Origin: Spartobacteria bacterium
Lineage (GTDB): Bacteria; Verrucomicrobiota; Verrucomicrobiia; Chthoniobacterales; UBA10450
Assembly: GCA_003134765.1 (NCBI GenBank)
Contig: PLCM01000018.1
Location: 347,465 to 411,464, forward strand
Direction: 5' to 3'
Length of the DNA stretch: 64,000 bases
The notes beneath the pieces are model-generated. The model was not told where the DNA came from, did no database searches, and worked only from the letters and a program-made list of their open reading frames with translations. Position numbers and translations under genes: made by a program. Of the stretch, positions 3,195 through 64,000 are shown piece after piece (the stretch's first letter is position 1; each line of letters starts with the position of its first letter).

Positions 3195-4291
3195 TGTATT
3201 ACCTCCATCTCCTGAGTGAGGAGATCAAAGGCTTCAACGTCTTTAGTTATGTGACGTTCCGCGCCGTCGCGGCAGCGGTTACGGCGTTCGTCCTTTCGCT
3301 TGCGTTCGGCAATCTCGTCATTCGCAAATTGATCGCCCTCAAAATCGGCCAGCCCATTCGGACGGCCGAGGAAGTCCATCGCCTCGCGGAGTTGCACAGC
3401 GCAAAACAAGGCGTCCCGACCATGGGCGGCGTGCTCGTGATCGGAACGGTCGTGCTCTCCAGTTTCCTCTGGGCGCGCCCGGACAATCGCTTCGTCTGGC
3501 TCGCGCTCTTCAGCATGGTTTATCTCGGCGTTCTCGGGTTCGTGGACGATTACCTCAAGGTTTCGAAGAAGAAATCGGACGGCATCAGTGGCCGGTTAAA
3601 ATTGGTTTTTCAGATCGGTCTCGCCTGCATCGTGGCCGTCGTCTTTCTGACCAATCCGCTCATCGAAGTCCAGGCGCGCTCGCTTTATCTGCCGTTTTTC
3701 AAAATTCCGGTCGTGCCCAACATGGGGTGGCTCACGGTCGTCTTCTTCGCGTTCGTGATCGTCGGTTCCTCGAATGCCGTGAATCTCACCGATGGGCTCG
3801 ATGGTCTTGCGATCGGCTGCACGATCACGGTGGCGTTCGCCTATGCGCTTCTCTCCTACGCGGCCGGAAATTTCCGGATCGCGGAATACCTCCAGGTCCC
3901 TTTTTATCCCTACACGGGTGAGCTGGCGGTGGTCTCCTCCGCCCTCGTCGGCGCCGGACTTGGTTTCCTCTGGTTCAATTGTCACCCCGCCAAAGTCATC
4001 ATGGGCGATACCGGTGCGCTCGCGATCGGGGGGATCATCGGCGTGATCGCGATCTGTTGTAAGCAAGAGCTACTCCTTGCGGTGGTGGGCGGTGTTTTCG
4101 TGCTCGAAGCGGCGTCGGTCATTCTCCAGGTGCTCAGCTTTCGGCTGACCGGCAAACGCATTTTCGCCATGTCGCCGCTCCATCATCACTTCGAGTTGCG
4201 CGGCTGGAAGGAGAACACCGTCATTGTCCGGTTCTGGATCCTGTCGGCGATCTTCGCGCTCCTCGGATTGGCCACCTTGAAATTAAGATAA
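3191..4291 (+). CDS. mraY: Phospho-N-acetylmuramoyl-pentapeptide transferase MraY
   Basis: A 366-residue polytopic inner-membrane enzyme that transfers phospho-MurNAc-pentapeptide from UDP to undecaprenyl phosphate, making lipid I. Visible signatures are LHSAKQGVPTMGG near 74, the acidic FVDDYLK near 117-123, NLTDGLDGLAIG near 197-208 and the HHHFELRGW loop near 331-339. These supply the catalytic aspartates and Mg-binding residues of the family. Length and hydrophobic segment pattern (about ten helices) are normal. Its ATG overlaps the murF stop as ATGA, indicating translational coupling. Confidence 0.97.
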   Translation: MMYYLHLLSEEIKGFNVFSYVTFRAVAAAVTAFVLSLAFGNLVIRKLIALKIGQPIRTAEEVHRLAELHSAKQGVPTMGGVLVIGTVVLSSFLWARPDNRFVWLALFSMVYLGVLGFVDDYLKVSKKKSDGISGRLKLVFQIGLACIVAVVFLTNPLIEVQARSLYLPFFKIPVVPNMGWLTVVFFAFVIVGSSNAVNLTDGLDGLAIGCTITVAFAYALLSYAAGNFRIAEYLQVPFYPYTGELAVVSSALVGAGLGFLWFNCHPAKVIMGDTGALAIGGIIGVIAICCKQELLLAVVGGVFVLEAASVILQVLSFRLTGKRIFAMSPLHHHFELRGWKENTVIVRFWILSAIFALLGLATLKLR

Positions 4292-56891: not shown

Positions 56892-57965
56892 ATGCTCGCC
56901 AAGATCTATTCTGCCGCCGTCTATGGAGTCGATGCCTACGAGGTGGAAATCGAGGTCAACGGTGCCGGGGGCGACCCGCACATTATCATCGTTGGCCTGC
57001 CCGATGCCGCGGTAAAAGAAAGCCGCGATCGCGTTACTACGGCGATCAGTAACAGCGGGTATTTCTGGCCGCGCGGACGGACGACGATCAATCTCGCGCC
57101 GGCCGACATAAAGAAAGAGGGTCCCAGCTTCGACCTGCCGATCGCGCTTGGGATGATCGCCGTGAGCGAGGATCTCGACGGTTCGACCTTCGAACGATTC
57201 AGCTTTGTCGGCGAGCTGGCGTTGGACGGCAGCGTGCGCGCCGTCAAAGGCGTGCTGCCGGTGGCCTTGGAAGCGCGCCGGCAAAAGAAAGAGGCGATTT
57301 TCGTTCCCGCGGCCAACGCGCACGAAGCCGCGATGGTGGAAGGGATCACCGTCTACGGCGTGCGGAACCTGCGGGAAACATTCCAGTTCGTTCGAGGCGA
57401 ATCGACGATCGAACCTACGCCGGGCGATCTCACTTCGTTCTTCGCCACCCACAAGAATTACGAGGTCGATTTCAGTGACGTGAAAGGGCAGGGCCACGTC
57501 AAACGCGCCATTGAAGTGGCGGTCGCCGGCGGGCACAACCTGTTGATGATCGGTCCGCCCGGTTCCGGCAAATCGATGTTGTCGAAACGGATCGCCACGA
57601 TCATGCCCCCGATGTCGCTCGAGGAGGCGATCGAGAGCACGAAGATCCACAGCATCTCGGGAATGCTCAACGGCGAAAAGGCGTTCGTCTCCACCCGGCC
57701 CTTTCGCTCGCCACATCACACCATCTCGGATGTCGGGTTGCTCGGCGGCTCCGCCATTCCAGCGCCCGGCGAAGTGAGCCTCGCGCACCACGGGGTTTTG
57801 TTTCTCGATGAGCTGCCGGAGTTCAAACGCTCCACGCTCGAAGTGATGCGGCAGCCGCTGGAAGACGGAAAGGTCACCGTTTCGCGGGCGGCGGGCAGCG
57901 TGACGTTCCCGTCCGAGTTCATGCTTGTGGCTGCGATGAATCCATGTCCGTGCGGGTTCAGGTGA
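56892..57965 (+). pseudogene. comM: Truncated ComM/YifB Mg-chelatase-like AAA+ helicase gene
   Basis: Only 357 of the usual roughly 500 codons remain. The N-terminal ChlI-like domain ([34 protein letters not shown]), Walker A GPPGSGKS at 221-228, the Walker B region [13 protein letters not shown] (near 300) and [20 protein letters not shown] are intact, but the frame ends at MNPCPCGFR followed by TGA, exactly before the conserved Cys-rich stretch, sensor 2 and the C-terminal lid. ComM is a branch-migration helicase acting in natural transformation; this product should be inactive. The sequence turns AT-richer after the stop, so insertion of the neighbouring island is the likely cause. comM is the known insertion site of AbaR islands in Acinetobacter. 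Confidence 0.9.
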
Positions 57966-58320
57966 GGGTGACACCGAGCATAAATGGCCATCCGTCGATT
58001 GTAGGGGAGGATGAAACGCTGTTATGCTAGAGATTTGGAATTATGGGCAGGTAGTCGGTTGGTGCGTCTCGAGAAAAAGACGAAACAGTTGCGAAACCGC
58101 TGGGCGGATCCGGTATTGGTGGCCTATTCTGGTCCTAAAAAATTTCTTCTCGCCGGACCGCGAATCCTGCCCTATACTGTTCTAATGAACATAAACGTGG
58201 GGTTTGGTGCACTCGCCCTGGCAATCGACCGACAGCTGACAAAGAGAAAATGCGAGTTGTGCCGAAGCCTGCTGTTTGTGGTTGGAATGAACGCTGATTG
58301 TTGGCACGCTCGTCGCCATT
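57966..58320. other. Non-coding left end of the island (attachment region and promoter for the deaminase operon)
   Basis: 355 bp without a convincing gene. One 105-codon frame (58,011-58,328) exists but has no family resemblance and overlaps the deaminase start. TATACT at 58,173-58,178 could be a -10 element, but no good -35 is at the right distance. The left attachment site is expected at its 5' edge. Confidence 0.5.
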
Positions 58321-59580
58321 GTGGCTGAGAACCTCCTCAAGAACTGTATTCCAGGCGTCCTATCAGATCGGCAAGTGAAAGAACTAATCGCCTTGAAACT
58401 AATCCGGGGTGTTCGTGACCTCGCCGATCAGGTCGATTATTCCTCGGTTGATTTGACGCTTGCGGACGAAGGGTATCGCCTGCTTTCGGGATCGGTTAAG
58501 CCCTTTGTTTCTCCTGAAAAAGCAAGCTACCGCCACCATGTTTTGGAGGACGCGCAGTTTACCGAAAAAATCCGAGGGCACAAAGGCGTTTATGCCCTCG
58601 AACCGCATCAAACGTATGTTTTTAAATTAGAGCAGACGTTAGACGCCGCTCGCTTGCGAAATTTACAAGTTTTCGGACAGGCTACGGCAAAAAGTTCAGT
58701 CGGACGGGTAGACGTTCTTGCTCGCCTTATTGTTGACGGAATGAATAGTTACGAAGAATTCACTCCAAACGCGTTTGAGCATGCGAATGGTGAAATGTTT
58801 GTAGAAATCACGCCGATGACTTTTCGAGTGCGCGTCAAAGCGGGATGCGCAGTCAACCAATTACGGCTTTTTTATGGCCAACCCAAACACGCCGAAATAA
58901 GCGGCGCGGAGCTATTTAATACCGTCCTCCTCCGACCAGATGCGGAAAGCCTCGTGGATGACTCTTTATCGGTGGACTTAAACCCGGTCAGAATCGGCGG
59001 ATTGGAAGCATCGGCGTTTTGTGCACACCACAACGAACAGTTTATTGATTTGTGGAGAGAACATGGTGCCAATCCATTGGATTTCTGGAATATCGAACTC
59101 GCACGAATTGGATCTCAAAGTGGCAGGCGCATGTTGGAAATTCAGAAAAACGCTTTCTACATCTTGAGATCGCGTGAAAAAATTCGTTTGCCGAAGAATA
59201 TCGCCGTTTACTGCCGTGCCATTGATGAAACCATTGGCGAAATGAGAATCCACTACGCTGGTTTTGTTCACCCGTTTTTCGGTGAAAATCGTAGGGACCG
59301 GCAACTGGGGACGCCTTTGATTTTTGAGGTCCGAGGGCATGACGTAAACGTTGCTCTTATTCAGCACGAACGGATGGCTCGGCTGACATTTTATCGAATG
59401 TCGGAAGATTGCAAGCTTAAGCCCAAGTCCAAACGGCGCAGCAAGAGAAATCGCGCCCTCCCCAATAAGAAAAACAAATACAACGAACAGGAATTAGAGC
59501 TATCGGGTTTGTTTGGACGTTGGCCTACAAAACTTGGCCGTAGAAAAAACCGTTTGGTCAAGATCAGCCGCCGTCGATGA
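58321..59580 (+). CDS. Twin-fold dCTP deaminase-like protein (DCD/DUT superfamily)
   Basis: A 419-residue protein from GTG 58,321. Two copies of the dCTP deaminase/dUTPase beta fold are seen: N-terminal half with VLSDRQVKELIALKLIRG, YSSVDLTLADEGY, FGQATAKSSVGRVDVLARLI (Ser and Arg of the nucleotide pocket; about 118-137) and AGCAVNQLRLFYGQP; C-terminal half with IELARIG, FYILRSREKIRLP, YAGFVHPFFGENRRD and FEVRGHDVNVAL. This matches the double-length DCD family rather than the 190-residue housekeeping enzyme. The last 50 residues are a Lys/Arg-rich tail, unusual for the family, perhaps for nucleic acid binding. dCTP deaminases deplete dCTP and some defend against phages. The stop overlaps the next start as ATGA. 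Confidence 0.8.
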   Translation: MAENLLKNCIPGVLSDRQVKELIALKLIRGVRDLADQVDYSSVDLTLADEGYRLLSGSVKPFVSPEKASYRHHVLEDAQFTEKIRGHKGVYALEPHQTYVFKLEQTLDAARLRNLQVFGQATAKSSVGRVDVLARLIVDGMNSYEEFTPNAFEHANGEMFVEITPMTFRVRVKAGCAVNQLRLFYGQPKHAEISGAELFNTVLLRPDAESLVDDSLSVDLNPVRIGGLEASAFCAHHNEQFIDLWREHGANPLDFWNIELARIGSQSGRRMLEIQKNAFYILRSREKIRLPKNIAVYCRAIDETIGEMRIHYAGFVHPFFGENRRDRQLGTPLIFEVRGHDVNVALIQHERMARLTFYRMSEDCKLKPKSKRRSKRNRALPNKKNKYNEQELELSGLFGRWPTKLGRRKNRLVKISRRR

Positions 59581-60671
59581 ACGATTCGGTCGTCCAAAAC
59601 CTGCAGATTGTTCGGCTGTCAGACGCGGATGCGAAATACCAGACAGATCATCTTTCGATTTTTCGGCAACTCGTCCTCGGCAACGAGTATATGTACCCGA
59701 ATATTGATAGATGGTTTAACGAAAAAGTTGTCCCCGGTCTTCGATCAAACGAACGCATTGCTTACGTCGGTTATTTGGATTCAAAACCGGTAATCTCGGC
59801 GGTCGTGAAACGTGGCGACGTTGCCAAGTTCTGCCATTTGCGGATATCGCAAGAACTTCAAGAAACGAATCTGGGTGAACTGTTCTTTTCGCTTATGGCG
59901 CTTGAAGCCAGAGCTTACGCTAAGGACATTTATTTCACTCTACCCGAGAGTCTTTGGTTAACGAAGATGAAGTTTTTTCAGTCATTTGGCTTCCTAAAAG
60001 CGACAAAAGCAGATGATCAATACCGGTTTTTTGAGGAGGAACTGCAAACTTCAGCATCATTTTCACATGTCTGGCAAGCTGTACTAAGGAAATTACCAAA
60101 GCTTTTGAATACATTCTGTGTAGGTGGACATCGAATGTCTGGCGATTTGCTATTGAGTATTAAACCCGAATTCGCAGCAAGAATAATGACCGGAGAAAAG
60201 GCAGTGGAAATCCGGCGCAGGTTCTCAAAGCGATGGATTGGTAGCCGCGCGAATATATATGCAACAGCCCCGGTAAAGGGTTTAATTGGCGAAGCTCAAA
60301 TCTCTAATGTGCGGTCTGGAAAACCGAAGAATATCTGGAAGCATTATTCCGCTTATTTGGGTTGCTGTCAGAAGTCGTTTGACGATTACACATCGGATTG
60401 TGAGGTCGTTTATGCTATCGAACTTGATCAAGTTAAGACATATCGTGCGCCAATCATGCTGTCGTATGCATCAAACTTGATTGGCGAAGAACTCGTACCT
60501 CCTCAATCGTACTGTGAATTAGGGGCAGGCAAACCATGGACACAGGCGGTTTCAATTGCCGCACTCCTCCATGGTTTTCGAGCTGCTTCATCAAATCATA
60601 TCGCCAAACTTGGACCCACGAGTCGAACGCCGCCGTGCGTAAGCGAAGACCGACAAGGGATGCTTTTGTGA
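59577..60671 (+). CDS. GNAT acetyltransferase-like domain fused to an ASCH/PUA-like domain
   Basis: A 364-residue two-domain protein translationally coupled to the deaminase gene. Residues about 8-155 resemble a GNAT N-acetyltransferase (VGYLDSKPVISAVVKRGD; CHLRISQELQETNLGELFFS; FFQSFGFLKATKA). From residue 187 an ASCH (PUA-fold) domain begins: LLLSIKPEFAARIMTGEKAV, then EIRRRF and GSRANIYATAPVKGLIGEAQ, ending with the QSYCELGAG block near 310. ASCH domains bind RNA or modified nucleotides; E. coli YqfB of this superfamily hydrolyses N4-acetylcytidine, but its Lys-x-x-Thr reads KAVE here, so the same chemistry is not assured. A cytidine-centred pathway with the neighbouring deaminase is attractive but inferred. 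Confidence 0.7.
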   Translation: MNDSVVQNLQIVRLSDADAKYQTDHLSIFRQLVLGNEYMYPNIDRWFNEKVVPGLRSNERIAYVGYLDSKPVISAVVKRGDVAKFCHLRISQELQETNLGELFFSLMALEARAYAKDIYFTLPESLWLTKMKFFQSFGFLKATKADDQYRFFEEELQTSASFSHVWQAVLRKLPKLLNTFCVGGHRMSGDLLLSIKPEFAARIMTGEKAVEIRRRFSKRWIGSRANIYATAPVKGLIGEAQISNVRSGKPKNIWKHYSAYLGCCQKSFDDYTSDCEVVYAIELDQVKTYRAPIMLSYASNLIGEELVPPQSYCELGAGKPWTQAVSIAALLHGFRAASSNHIAKLGPTSRTPPCVSEDRQGMLL

Positions 60672-60807
60672 AAACGAATCCGCTGAGCTTTCTTCGATGT
60701 CGCTCAACGAGTATTTAGTGTCAGTTGCGGGCGAGTAAAGTGTTGGGATATTGGAAGATCTAATGAAATTATTCCGGCGTTCGGCTCACCAACCGATGTC
60801 ATGATCA

Positions 60808-62664
60808 TTAGCGAAGACTCCCGGGGTCGTGTTCCTCGTTTTGTATCTGGGGTCGGGATGTTTCCATTCTCCTGGTCGACACCGCGGAGGGAGCTACGGT
60901 CAACCTTCGTCTCAGGTAGGCCGTATTCGCCTTAATCGCGATGCAGCGGCGGCACTGTCCTTTACGCGGATAAAATTCGGTCGCTGGACGCACAGTGCGG
61001 CAGCATGAGCAGCGACGCGTGCCCTCTGGCAAGGGATCAGTCGGTTGGAGTGTGAACGGCTCGGGCAAATGGATTGGTGGTGTCGAGAAACCGGCGCCCA
61101 GTTTCACCTGATTACCAACGCCAAAATCCTCCCGGAACTTGAACGCGATGATCGACCTATCTTTCACGAAAATCTCACTGAACGCCGCGAGAATGATCGT
61201 TTTTTGAGCGTGCGGATCATTGTTCAGGCGTTTCAGCCGGAAGGCACCGCGGACCACCTTTTTTGCAAGTTCCTCGATTCCGAGTTCACGTCGTGCGTTG
61301 CCATCGGTATTCCGCCGAGATATGGCTTCGATCTGCGTTCGGATCGCGCTTCGCCGGTCGCGCAGTTCGTCGATCGAAATTGCACCTCCCGCAGCGAAAG
61401 CGTCGAGAAGTCTTTTGTCGTTTCGCCTGAGGCTGTCGATTTCTGCGGTAGCGTCCACCGGGAACGCACTGATGGTCTCTTTCGCACGTCGGACAGAATC
61501 GTTGATGATCGCGGTTAAAGTATCTGCGTTCGTAAGCGTCTTTACCGCAAATGCCCGGATCAATGCGTCAAGCTCCGGTTGCCGCAGGTTGGGTTGGCTG
61601 CAGCCGCCGAGCTGGTCGCGATACAGGTAATAGTTTCGTTTGCAAAAATACTGTCCGCTCCGCTGCCCGGTGGTGCGTCGTCCTGATGACGAGTAAAACG
61701 TTTCCGCGCAATATCCGCAGCGGGCGAGTCCGGTTCCGAGGTTGCAAGTATCGTTGCGTTTCCGCGTCTCATGGTGGTTGAAGGTGGTCTGGCGGATTGA
61801 CGCTTGGACGCGGTCAAAGCATTCCTGACTGACGGCGGGCGTATTGATTACCGTCACGCGAATGATTTCATCGGCGGAACGCTTCACTTTCTTCCGGTAT
61901 GCCTTTCCGGTTCGGCTCACCACTTTCTCGCCGCGCTTCTCGTCGATCACGCGCCAACCGGTGTAAATCGGATTTCTTAAAAGGTTGTAAGCGGTGCGGT
62001 GGTGCACGCCCGTCCGGCGTTCGAGTTCGTGGTAATTGCGAACGCCGGAGTCGTAGAGTCGAAACAGTTCGATCACGGTCGCGATCTTCTCGTTGTAGTA
62101 GAATCGCAGCCGTTGGCGGTCGAACGAAACGCCCAAGGGCAGGGCGTTCGTTGGACAATGCCCCATCCGACGTTTCGCCTCGCAAGCGCCTTTTTGGCGC
62201 TCCTTCATGAGTCCCAATTCCCATGCCGAAATCGCGCTCCTGATTCCGGAAAAGAGCATTCCGTCCTTTGACCCGAGGTCATATTCGGTGTCGCCCGAAT
62301 AGATAATTGCTCCGGTGTCCTTGAAGTTTTGGAGGATCGCGTAATCGGTCGGCTCATCTGGTCGAAAAAGACGATCCAAATCAGCGACTACCAGTCCCGT
62401 CACCACTTTGGTAGCGACGAGTCTAAGTATCTCTTGAATGTCGGGGTGATGGCGGACGCGTGTCCCCGAGAGGTCGCTGATCTCGTAGATGCGTAGGCAG
62501 TCGAGATTCTTGCGCTTGATTGTGTCCTCGATCACGCGTCGCTGCCTCGGGATGCCACCTCGACCGTCGCGTGCCTGGTCGGCAGTTGAAACGCGGATGA
62601 GCGCGACCACCCGGCGTCTCACAGATGCCGGTGCATCGGGCGATGGCTGGTGGACGGCTTGCAT
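60808..62664 (-). CDS. Large serine recombinase (site-specific integrase)
   Basis: A 618-residue recombinase from ATG 62,664 (a TTG lies just before). N-terminal resolvase domain: VVALIRVSTADQARDGRGG with the catalytic Ser in RVST (near 26), then VADLDRLFRPDEPTDYAIL; recombinase domain: ERRTGVHHRTAYNLLRNPIY, then TGWRVIDEKRGEKVV; zinc ribbon CGYCAETFYSS...YFCKRN...GGC (about 317-355); coiled coil (about 400-450). A further Cys cluster (RRCSCCRTVRPATEFYPRKG, then QCRRC) sits in the last 80 residues, beyond the usual C-terminus. It points towards the deaminase pair and probably integrates and excises the island. Confidence 0.93.
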   Translation of the reverse strand: MQAVHQPSPDAPASVRRRVVALIRVSTADQARDGRGGIPRQRRVIEDTIKRKNLDCLRIYEISDLSGTRVRHHPDIQEILRLVATKVVTGLVVADLDRLFRPDEPTDYAILQNFKDTGAIIYSGDTEYDLGSKDGMLFSGIRSAISAWELGLMKERQKGACEAKRRMGHCPTNALPLGVSFDRQRLRFYYNEKIATVIELFRLYDSGVRNYHELERRTGVHHRTAYNLLRNPIYTGWRVIDEKRGEKVVSRTGKAYRKKVKRSADEIIRVTVINTPAVSQECFDRVQASIRQTTFNHHETRKRNDTCNLGTGLARCGYCAETFYSSSGRRTTGQRSGQYFCKRNYYLYRDQLGGCSQPNLRQPELDALIRAFAVKTLTNADTLTAIINDSVRRAKETISAFPVDATAEIDSLRRNDKRLLDAFAAGGAISIDELRDRRSAIRTQIEAISRRNTDGNARRELGIEELAKKVVRGAFRLKRLNNDPHAQKTIILAAFSEIFVKDRSIIAFKFREDFGVGNQVKLGAGFSTPPIHLPEPFTLQPTDPLPEGTRRCSCCRTVRPATEFYPRKGQCRRCIAIKANTAYLRRRLTVAPSAVSTRRMETSRPQIQNEEHDPGSLR

Positions 62665-62744
62665 CAACGTAAGTAAAAATCAGGAGCGAAAATTCTGGCA
62701 ATTCTTGACTAGTAAGAGTGCCCGAGGGACGCCGGTCTTGTGGA

Positions 62745-63533
62745 TCAGTCTGAAATGGGCCGCGCCCAGTCGGTCTTTGGAACGACTTCACTCCGAAACA
62801 CGTCGAACAAGACCGCATTTGGTGAATCGGATGCGAAGCGTTTGCCCTGGACGCCCACCGATGCGAGCAGCGTTTTCAAATTGGGCGTAAATGCGCCCAC
62901 TTCTAGATCGATGGCCAAGACGATGTCCCAGTGCTCCGTCAGAATCGAAATGCACTGTTCAGCGCAACGAAGGAAGAAGTCCTTGGTGCGTCCGTCATCA
63001 TTGTCGGTGATCGTACCCTGGACGCGAAATAGGACGCCCCATTCTGGTGGAGGCGGCCAGAAAGCTTCGAGGAGGCGCTCAGCATCCGGGCCGGCGGGAT
63101 CATCATTGATCATTTCAGCCGCCATCCCCGCCATCAGGCCCTGGATTTCCCACGCGGCTTGCTCCCGAATGCGTTTGAGGTGTCCGGCGCTGAGCCGCTT
63201 TTCCGCATTACGGATGTCTGAAACCGGCAACGGATGAAAGTGGTCTGGCATAACCTCTTGAAATGCCCACTTTTCGTTAAGCCTGATGTAAGATCCGTTG
63301 TAAATCGCCATGAAGAGGCGACCTGCTCGATAGAGAGTCGAGCTGTGCTGTAGAGGTTCGATAGGCGGGTCGTCCTCCGTTTCGCCGCCGCACGATAGAA
63401 AATTGTGAGCGAGCCGGGCTGTATCTTCAAAATAACATTCCAAGGTCACGACGGCCGCGTCGCTGCCAGTCATGCGTGCCAATTCAATGTAGAGAGGAAA
63501 GTTAAGTTCACTCTCATCGTTTTCATTTTCCAT
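62745..63533 (-). CDS. Unrecognised 262-residue island protein
   Basis: Not recognised. A strong Shine-Dalgarno (AAGGA eight bases before the ATG) makes it a real gene. The product is acidic and soluble-looking, with no signal peptide or membrane segment. Features: IELARMTGSDAAVVTLECYF near the N-terminus, Trp-rich WPPPPEWG near 165, and EHWDIVLAIDLEVGAFTPNL near the C-terminus. Helical content is mixed with beta-like stretches. It lies 80 bp upstream of the recombinase gene and 44 bp downstream of the 86-residue gene, all on the same strand, so it is probably co-transcribed with them. Confidence 0.75.
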   Translation of the reverse strand: MENENDESELNFPLYIELARMTGSDAAVVTLECYFEDTARLAHNFLSCGGETEDDPPIEPLQHSSTLYRAGRLFMAIYNGSYIRLNEKWAFQEVMPDHFHPLPVSDIRNAEKRLSAGHLKRIREQAAWEIQGLMAGMAAEMINDDPAGPDAERLLEAFWPPPPEWGVLFRVQGTITDNDDGRTKDFFLRCAEQCISILTEHWDIVLAIDLEVGAFTPNLKTLLASVGVQGKRFASDSPNAVLFDVFRSEVVPKTDWARPISD

Positions 63534-63577
63534 ATTTGTGTTCCTTTTTTCGTCAGTTTTTGTTGAGGTCGTCGCGG

Positions 63578-63838
63578 TTAGAGTTCCCTGGGCGAGTTCC
63601 AGAACTCGAAAAGCTCCTGCAGTGAAGCCGCCTCCTTCTGTTTGTTTCCCAGCTTTGCCCAGTAGTGGATTTTCATCAGGAGGGCGTTTTCCCGCGCTTT
63701 TATTGCGGGCCAGTTCTTCCCGTACTCGTTTAACGGGCTGCAGGGATCTTCCTTCAGCCGTTTGACGAATTCTTCAGGGGTTTCAGATCGGTGGTGTCGG
63801 CGCCGGCGGCGTTGGGCAGCGTGGAGGTTCGTTTTCAT
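63578..63838 (-). CDS. Small basic island protein, 86 residues
   Basis: Not recognised. The start is placed at ATG 63,838, preceded by AGGA at about 12 bases; the longer open frame upstream overlaps the neighbouring gene's end and is a shadow. The N-terminus is very basic (AAQRRRRRHHRS), followed by ETPEEFVKRLKEDPCSPLNE and a helical C-terminus (ALLMKIHYWAKLGNKQKEAA) with a coiled-coil-like heptad pattern. A nucleic-acid-binding accessory or regulator would fit, but nothing specific can be said. Confidence 0.6.
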   Translation of the reverse strand: MKTNLHAAQRRRRRHHRSETPEEFVKRLKEDPCSPLNEYGKNWPAIKARENALLMKIHYWAKLGNKQKEAASLQELFEFWNSPREL

Positions 63839-63881
63839 AATGTTTGGTTGGTTCCTGGTGTTCCATAACTCGGTCCAGGCG

Positions 63882-64000
63882 TTACTCCGCAGCCCCTTCT
63901 GTGAAGCGTTTGTTAAACACGCGCTCGAAAAACGGGAGAGCCGGGTCACCAGAGTTAGGGTCACCCTCTGCCAGGACGTGGGCGAGCTGCTCAATCTCCG
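63882..64000 (-). CDS. 3' end of a further island gene (partial)
   Basis: The last 39 residues of a gene entering from the right: EIEQLAHVLAEGDPNSGDPA, then LPFFERVFNKRFTEGAAE and TAA at 63,882-63,884. The frame is phase-shifted by two bases at the window edge. It lies 43 bp upstream of the 86-residue gene and is probably the first visible gene of a four-gene leftward operon ending in the recombinase. No family call is possible from so short a tail. Confidence 0.65.
   Translation of the reverse strand, partial: EIEQLAHVLAEGDPNSGDPALPFFERVFNKRFTEGAAE

Follow-up and report, generated by a model that had tools for sequence, protein, structure and literature searches.

A twin-domain dCTP deaminase and a GNAT-ASCH fusion protein on a mobile-looking insertion in comM: probably an undescribed conflict system

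The comM gene of a Spartobacteria bacterium (genome G000, 94% complete) is interrupted within the stretch of 64,000 nucleotides analysed here, G000:C27:347465-411464, which we call the window. Its open reading frame (ORF) breaks off at MNPCPCGFR*, and the 3' part of the gene (TIGR00368 model positions 332-499) was found on a separate contig, at C33:8859-9356. GC content falls from 0.60-0.62 across comM to 0.44-0.51 over ~58000-60750, and is 0.55-0.58 across a serine recombinase gene on the opposite strand. Between comM and the recombinase lie the two genes that are our subject, which overlap by ATGA at 59577-59580 and encode a twin-domain dCTP deaminase (DCD) of the DUT fold and a fusion of a GNAT with an ASCH domain (Table 1). 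The broken comM, the drop in base composition, the overlapping operon and the opposite-strand recombinase had been pointed out in an earlier sequence-only reading, which proposed a mobile anti-phage module, and ORF inspection, GC profiles and Pfam searches bore each of them out. The locus is more than chance, since a sister element is present in the same genome and eight other loci carry the same gene pair.

Table 1. Features of the comM insertion, in window coordinates
Feature	Position	Strand	Evidence
comM (YifB/Mg-chelatase-like) 5' part, cut by the insertion	56892..57965	+	TIGR00368 3.3e-140, model positions 1-352 of 499
Putative attL-type crossover core, AATCCATGTCCGTGCGG	57939..57955	+	Motif recurs with differences at the C33 comM 3' junction and the C2 junction
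Putative element left-end arm, right-hand half of an imperfect dyad	57957..57984	+	Other half on C33 and C2, TTTATGCTCAG...
Twin-domain DCD (DUT fold), 419 aa, predicted effector	58321..59580	+	Pfam DCD_N/DCD_C, PDB 2r9q, S125/R129/E162 in 9/9
GNAT-ASCH fusion, 364 aa, GNAT ~6-182, ASCH ~190-338	59577..60671	+	PADLOC PDC-M11B 2.5e-28, Foldseek GNAT/ZmASCH matches
Large serine recombinase of the element	60808..62667	-	Resolvase 4.4e-16, Recombinase 5.1e-7, zinc ribbon 7e-6
Protein of unknown function, probably part of the element	62745..63533	-	BLASTP to L003:4657-6174, 7e-17, 24% over 196 columns

The first gene of the pair starts with GTG, and its product is a twin DCD by Pfam, with both domains above cut-off (DCD_N 4.4e-24, 85.6 bits against 21.4; DCD_C 7e-27, 94.5 against 22) and PF22769 matching in two stretches. 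The closest solved relative is 2r9q (5.9e-28; 1.7e-49 by profile; 6.6e-29 by Foldseek), the predicted structure of the window DCD having a pLDDT of 78.4 and a pTM of 0.82. The score against NCBI equivalog NF005734, 176.7 bits, lies far below its cut-off of 283, so the protein is a relative of that enzyme and not that enzyme. The nine paired DCDs described below all share S125, G128, R129, D131 and E162 and, in the C-terminal half, E303, E307, R309, H311, E336 and R338. We take S125, R129 and E162 to be equivalent to S111, R115 and E138 of the E. coli DCD, and from these kept catalytic-type residues the window DCD is predicted to be an active deaminase.

For the partner, the GNAT half had no Pfam match at E<=1 and the ASCH half stays under its Pfam cut-off (17.3 against 21.2 bits). 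The predicted structure (me23d1750d286; pLDDT 86.9, pTM 0.81) was matched by Foldseek to ZmASCH of Zymomonas mobilis (5guq, 1.5e-12) and to many GNATs, including 8osp (7.2e-10) and PaiA (9.3e-9). GNATs carry the motif R/QxxGxG in their acetyl-CoA loop, and this loop fits the motif in three of the nine fusion proteins and is relaxed in the others, e.g., QETNLG. By profile, too, ZmASCH is the nearest match of the ASCH half (E 3e-23), and residues 191-314 match the PADLOC candidate family PDC-M11B. K208, E211, R213, Y228, Q310 and S311 are invariant in all nine fusion proteins, Y228 and S311 aligning with Tyr47 and Ser128 of ZmASCH, two residues that matter for RNA binding and cleavage according to the parts consulted of the ZmASCH report (PMC5615036). 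The two proteins thus share the ASCH fold at 31% identity and the Tyr, Gln and Ser of the cleft. They differ in that ZmASCH has no GNAT fusion (its PDB molecule name is 'helix-turn-helix domain-containing protein') and in that its Lys53 is not conserved in the window kind, where the equivalent residue is Lys in two of nine. A YqfB-type amidohydrolase, with its residue triad, was rejected for the ASCH half, the nearest solved fold being ZmASCH.

The pairing recurs strictly. A DCD family search of the 213 genomes of the order found a twin DCD followed by a GNAT-ASCH fusion in two congeners, G413 and G410, and a scan of genome contigs with an alignment of three GNAT halves returned nine loci, these two included (L094 and L093). 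One of the nine, L134, was left out of the count as its contig is cut at the 5' side; in the eight uncut loci, and hence in nine of nine with the window, ORF inspection placed the DCD immediately upstream of the GNAT-ASCH gene and on its strand. Adjacency of homologues, a check proposed with the sequence-only reading, was therefore found throughout. The eight other pairs come from metagenome-assembled genomes labelled Verrucomicrobia/Spartobacteria (three), Acidobacteria (two), Ignavibacteria (one), Zixibacteria (one) and merely 'bacterium' (one). The scan patterns favour kin of the three GNATs, so that more remote homologues, whether paired or unpaired, may have escaped it. A fusion profile run on the 384 genomes of the class gave full-length matches only in G000, G410 and G413, all with the DCD, and matches to the ASCH part alone in 14 others. 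A phylum-wide DCD search hit two of 288 genomes, our own plus one weak partial match; the order-wide search is the informative one because the phylum-wide sample held few close kin. A close-relative search with the GNAT-ASCH query gave no relatives in genome contigs. In the plasmid collection this query matched 42 records, none covering 80%, the 40 listed matching essentially the ASCH part, and the DCD query matched 16, whose listed organism names are all alphaproteobacterial. Comparison of the ORFs across the loci with a small reference set revealed no third gene that recurs with the pair, and a 105-aa ORF at 58011-58328, upstream of the DCD, was rejected as a third gene, having no Pfam match at E<=1.

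The comM insertion looks like a mobile element. Relatives of its recombinase (E<=1e-60) occur in four of the 213 genomes of the order, our own (twice), G013 (59%), G333 (36%) and G415 (30%), and those of the last three lie near a comM 5' part. The comM match ends at residue 357 in the window, 357 in G013 and 356 in G333, but at 338 in G415; the locus is thus a large-serine-recombinase island in comM, its recombinase adjoining a truncated comM at a common site. The motif AATCC(A/C)TGTCC(G/T)TGCGG stands at three junctions, those of the window comM, of the comM 3' part on C33 and of contig C2, where imperfect inverted arms flank it on both sides (TTTATGCTCAG.../...CTGAGCATAAA). G013 has a left end comparable to that holding the attL-type core of the window, and the two elements have the left-end sequence gtgacatcgagcataaatg in common. 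The 9-mer TTTATGCTC alone is not significant in the window (one match against 0.24 expected; at least one in 22 of 100 shuffles), its support being that it recurs at C33, C2 and G013. In our reading, core and arms make up the attP-like dyad of a large serine recombinase, and the C2 junction is where one element ends and another begins. On the basis of these junctions it is plausible that C27, C2 and C33 form one tandem array, yet they are three separate contigs. A tRNA was ruled out as the insertion target, as there is none in the window.

The sister element on C2 (L004, 8773-14432) holds a Lamassu system between this tandem-type junction and a recombinase to which that of the window is 87% identical over 1655 nt. 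LmuB is matched at 7e-132, LmuA at 2.8e-63 and LmuC at 6.6e-11, and the system carries the ABC-3C domains MC3 and CTD7. Lamassu here occupies the slot that in the window holds the DCD/GNAT-ASCH pair. In G013 (L135, 2649-16703) the slot contains a NERD protein, an IrrE-type peptidase and unassigned proteins, and in G333 there is hardly any cargo space between comM and recombinase. From these contents we conclude that the element family has a cargo slot, in one copy filled by a known defence system. The sequence-only reading had drawn a parallel to the AbaR islands of Acinetobacter. According to the parts consulted of PMC11472951, many elements have inserted into comM there, frequently carrying defence systems, and the element described is Tn7-like; the target gene and the defence cargo are therefore shared, whereas the mechanism is not, since the window has a large serine recombinase acting at the MNPCPCG codons.

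The pair also appears to move by other routes. A branch with 100/100 support splits the nine paired DCDs from five alphaproteobacterial twin DCDs; by tree path the window DCD is nearest to those of L128 (Acidobacteria) and L126 (Verrucomicrobiales), and no well-supported small group holds it. It is 47% identical to the L128 protein and 43-44% to its congeners, and the window GNAT-ASCH is 48% identical to that of L126, 46% to L127, 44% to G413 and 42% to G410. The divergence of the two proteins is correlated (Mantel r 0.58, a value reached in 37 of 10000 permutations). Around the pair, the three carriers in the genus (G000, G410 and G413) show three differing sets of neighbours. Because the neighbours differ in congeners and the window proteins resemble those of other taxa no less than those of the congeners, lateral transfer of the pair is suggested, and the different contexts within the genus mean that it travels not only with the comM element. 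In G410 the pair sits between ccm-type and ROK-type genes (names by eye), which adjoin in G414 and are separated by other DNA in G409. The ccm-type region was compared in seven genus genomes and a ROK-type gene found in the stretch only in G414 and G409; since the other five have none there, G414 is the one genome that offers an 'empty site'. The other DNA in G409 (L146, 4700-7340) repeats part of the ccm 3' end, so the spot may be an insertion hotspot.

Among the other pairs, that of L126 stands beside an AbiLi-like ATPase (1.8e-76) and that of L131 beside HsdM, HsdS and HsdR of a type I restriction-modification system. The caspase-type peptidase (Pfam 7.8e-34; PADLOC caspase 2.9e-8) and C11 peptidases of L128 are possibly defence-like. 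Company that is clearly defensive was thus seen in three of the nine loci, the element of the window included, in scans that covered part of the neighbouring genes, and this is suggestive and not proof.

The nearest described operons are those of (PIN)-GNAT-EVE and ASCH genes, often with AAA_17, which Bell et al. 2020 consider putative toxin-antitoxin or defence systems in the parts consulted (PMC7641849); the string 'dctp' occurs 0 times in the main text of that paper. We equate PDC-M11 of PADLOC with these operons because the reference M11A proteins match GNAT weakly (0.098, 1.7e-4) and an archaeal one is annotated as PIN, and because AAA_17 proteins adjoin or are fused to ASCH in M11-type loci. 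The ASCH half of the window protein is of M11B type, at 2.5e-28 where the Rahnella M11B protein scores 7.2e-49; a GNAT domain is found in both kinds, and so are mobile and defence-linked contexts. However, no PIN, EVE or AAA_17 was found with the window pair, its GNAT is fused to the ASCH domain, and its partner is a DCD gene. The match to M11A covers only GNAT residues 39-146, at 6.5e-4 compared with 1.7e-128 for the Rahnella M11A protein, and no M11A-like neighbour was seen beside the other pairs. Sharing ASCH and weakly GNAT, without the rest, the window protein is therefore not a PDC-M11 member. In two loci (L050 and L051) an M11B-type ASCH is fused to an AAA_17 nucleotide-kinase-like domain and adjoins an M11A-type gene. 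On a Pseudomonas plasmid (L068, 6446-7042) a separate GNAT gene, matching the window GNAT half at E 3.7e-10, directly follows an M11A/M11B pair, perhaps representing a step towards the GNAT-ASCH fusion.

As for the deaminase, the alphaproteobacterial twin DCDs (2r9q, PRK07559/NF005734) have both domains, the fold and the tail motif Y..Q.L.LS..F in common with the window protein. They are set apart from it by an identity of 27% in the fold match and by the opposite side of the 100/100 branch, and the window kind is always accompanied by GNAT-ASCH in the nine loci seen. On two Bosea plasmids (L071 and L156) a twin DCD is flanked on one side by a DNA methyltransferase gene and on the other by a pair of thioredoxin-domain and AAA ATPase genes, a second recurring context for twin DCDs. 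The sequence-only reading had likened the window gene to the dCTP deaminases that reportedly act in antiphage defence (Tal 2022, Hsueh 2022), which are said to be Zn-dependent CDA-fold proteins. This likeness failed: the window DCD has the DUT fold nearest to 2r9q and matches no PADLOC family at E<=1 (PADLOC-DB of 2023). What is shared is the predicted outcome, deamination of dC nucleotides, which the parts consulted on AvcID treat as an established outcome of defence (PMC10511110), while in place of the AvcI RNA the window DCD has a protein partner. An AvcI-type RNA antitoxin found no support, with no Rfam match and no notable upstream repeat array; in G410 only 97 bp lie upstream of the DCD. 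The claim that the pairing is undescribed stood, as no description was found in the literature searched, although Iyer 2013, Tal 2022 and Hsueh 2022 may mention it.

Taken together, the pair, which recurs in several phyla, probably represents an antiviral or conflict system not described before. The reading that we prefer, with confidence evenly divided for and against it, is a mobile two-gene conflict module, probably anti-phage, in which the DCD is the effector and GNAT-ASCH the control or targeting partner. Its basis, read from sequence, is the comM insertion beside a serine recombinase, the strict pairing, the kept DCD residues, the ASCH fold and the Lamassu-bearing sister element; from these we infer a defence function, as well as the direction of control, the substrate and the target of acetylation. 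The ASCH barrel would bind a nucleic acid or nucleotide ligand, the GNAT domain would acetylate a partner protein or a nucleobase, and GNAT-ASCH, from the same operon, would control or target the DCD. Once released or recruited, the DCD would deaminate dCTP or modified dCTP to dUTP, an activity expected to spoil the nucleotide pool needed for phage DNA synthesis. We favour the DCD as effector because its catalytic-type residues are kept in nine of nine and deamination of dC nucleotides is an established defence outcome, and because GNAT and ASCH are often accompanied by PIN in the kin operons, likewise an effector type. Of the mobile anti-phage module first proposed, the mobile-looking insertion, strict linkage, Lamassu in the sister slot and conserved DCD residues hold, and the kind of deaminase does not.

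Several observations weigh against this conflict module. Neighbours look ordinary in five of the eight other pairs as far as genes were examined (L127, L132, L133, L093 and L094). They include a ComEC-like gene in L127, a tRNA synthetase in L132, a radical SAM gene in L133 whose PADLOC PDC-M51A match (1.6e-12) we take for general similarity, cytochrome-biogenesis and ROK genes in L093 and a RarA-like gene in L094, the last two loci by reading only. No relatives of either protein were found in viral contigs, in a close-relative search with GNAT-ASCH and in searches with two alignments, and none of the DCD in the phage collection, which was searched with the DCD only. The same ASCH family also occurs elsewhere without a DCD, none being present in 25 ASCH loci examined (20 of 27 places, our own and six others left out, plus five plasmid loci), 11 of which, six of the 20 and all five plasmid ones, have an M11A-type gene. 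As the fusions do come with a DCD, the DCD goes with the fusion and not with the ASCH family at large. Lastly, our own genome has no other PF22769 DCD.

This last point feeds a metabolic alternative, in which the twin DCD supplies dUMP/dTTP synthesis, as is presumed for its alphaproteobacterial relatives, GNAT-ASCH tunes it and the element is merely the carrier. The twin DCDs of Paracoccus and Sinorhizobium do stand among ordinary genes. PF00692, one dUTPase family of several, is missing from seven of the eight genus genomes (the single match, in G414, is the same ORF as its DCD match), so that a DCD which also acts as a dUTPase might be of use. Yet within the genus only G000, G410 and G413 have a twin DCD; G409 has two tandem single-domain matches, G414 one weak match, and G411, G412 (only 88% complete) and G415 none, while PF00383 deaminases, among which dCMP deaminase was not told apart, occur in all eight. 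With no match in three of eight genomes a DCD is dispensable in the genus, which leaves replacement of a housekeeping DCD, a possibility raised by the sequence-only reading against itself, borne out only as far as our own genome goes. Given also the patchy occurrence in differing places and the strict linkage with an ASCH domain from a candidate conflict family, we consider a metabolic operon unlikely.

The roles could instead be reversed, GNAT-ASCH being the effector, an RNase or an acetylating toxin, and the twin DCD a sensor that responds to shifts in dCTP/dTTP upon infection and restrains it. DCDs are under allosteric nucleotide control, which would suit a sensor. ZmASCH, closest to the ASCH half, is reported as a single-strand RNase in the parts consulted of PMC5615036, and the equivalents of its Tyr47 and Ser128 never vary; that of Lys53, however, does, and the catalytic-type residues of the DCD are kept beyond the need of a pure sensor, so we hold such a reversal to be distinctly improbable. 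Very improbable, in our view, is a unit for the modification of bases or nucleotides, with a cytosine derivative acetylated by GNAT and recognised by ASCH, and with unmodified or phage-modified dCTP cleared by the DCD. The parts consulted of PMC7641849 cite an older suggestion of DNA-base acetylation by (PIN)-GNAT-EVE proteins and themselves propose that the ASCH of these operons binds modified DNA. Against such a unit, no third gene was seen to recur with the pair in the comparison with a small reference set, a DNA methylase was found next to the pair only in L131, within its restriction-modification set, and the acetyl-CoA loop seldom fits its motif.

Were the conflict module confirmed, attack on the nucleotide pool would have evolved again from another enzyme fold and with a partner protein instead of an RNA; both the effector fold and the partner would be new for a nucleotide-attack conflict module. 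The uncharacterised (PIN)-GNAT-EVE/ASCH group would gain a sister with a guessable enzyme activity, whose control logic could be tested via dCTP and dUTP. A broader idea, which is conceivable though we would sooner doubt it, is that GNAT plus an M11-type ASCH forms a chassis, reused across conflict systems for control and targeting, with exchangeable effectors, a PIN nuclease in the (PIN)-GNAT-EVE/ASCH operons and a DUT-fold DCD in the window. If so, the DUT-fold DCD would have been recruited separately from the CDA-fold deaminases as a pool effector under a protein partner. The serine-recombinase element family, for its part, uses comM as its site and varies its cargo, Lamassu in one copy and DCD/GNAT-ASCH in another.

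Some details of the elements and neighbourhoods remain to be recorded. The distant relative of the protein encoded next to the window recombinase (L003 in Table 1) is encoded on the same contig, 3' of the window. The C2 sister element suggests stacked element copies, as in composite islands. In G013 the recombinase match contains one TAG, counted in the search, and unassigned proteins of 403 and 832 aa are encoded downstream of it. In G415 (L136, 6354-14855) a different serine recombinase (30%) lies near a comM whose cut falls ~19 codons earlier, and a DNA polymerase A gene is present as well. After the pair of G413 (L094) a short ORF at ~3687-3872 reads, by eye, like a Phd/YefM-type antitoxin.

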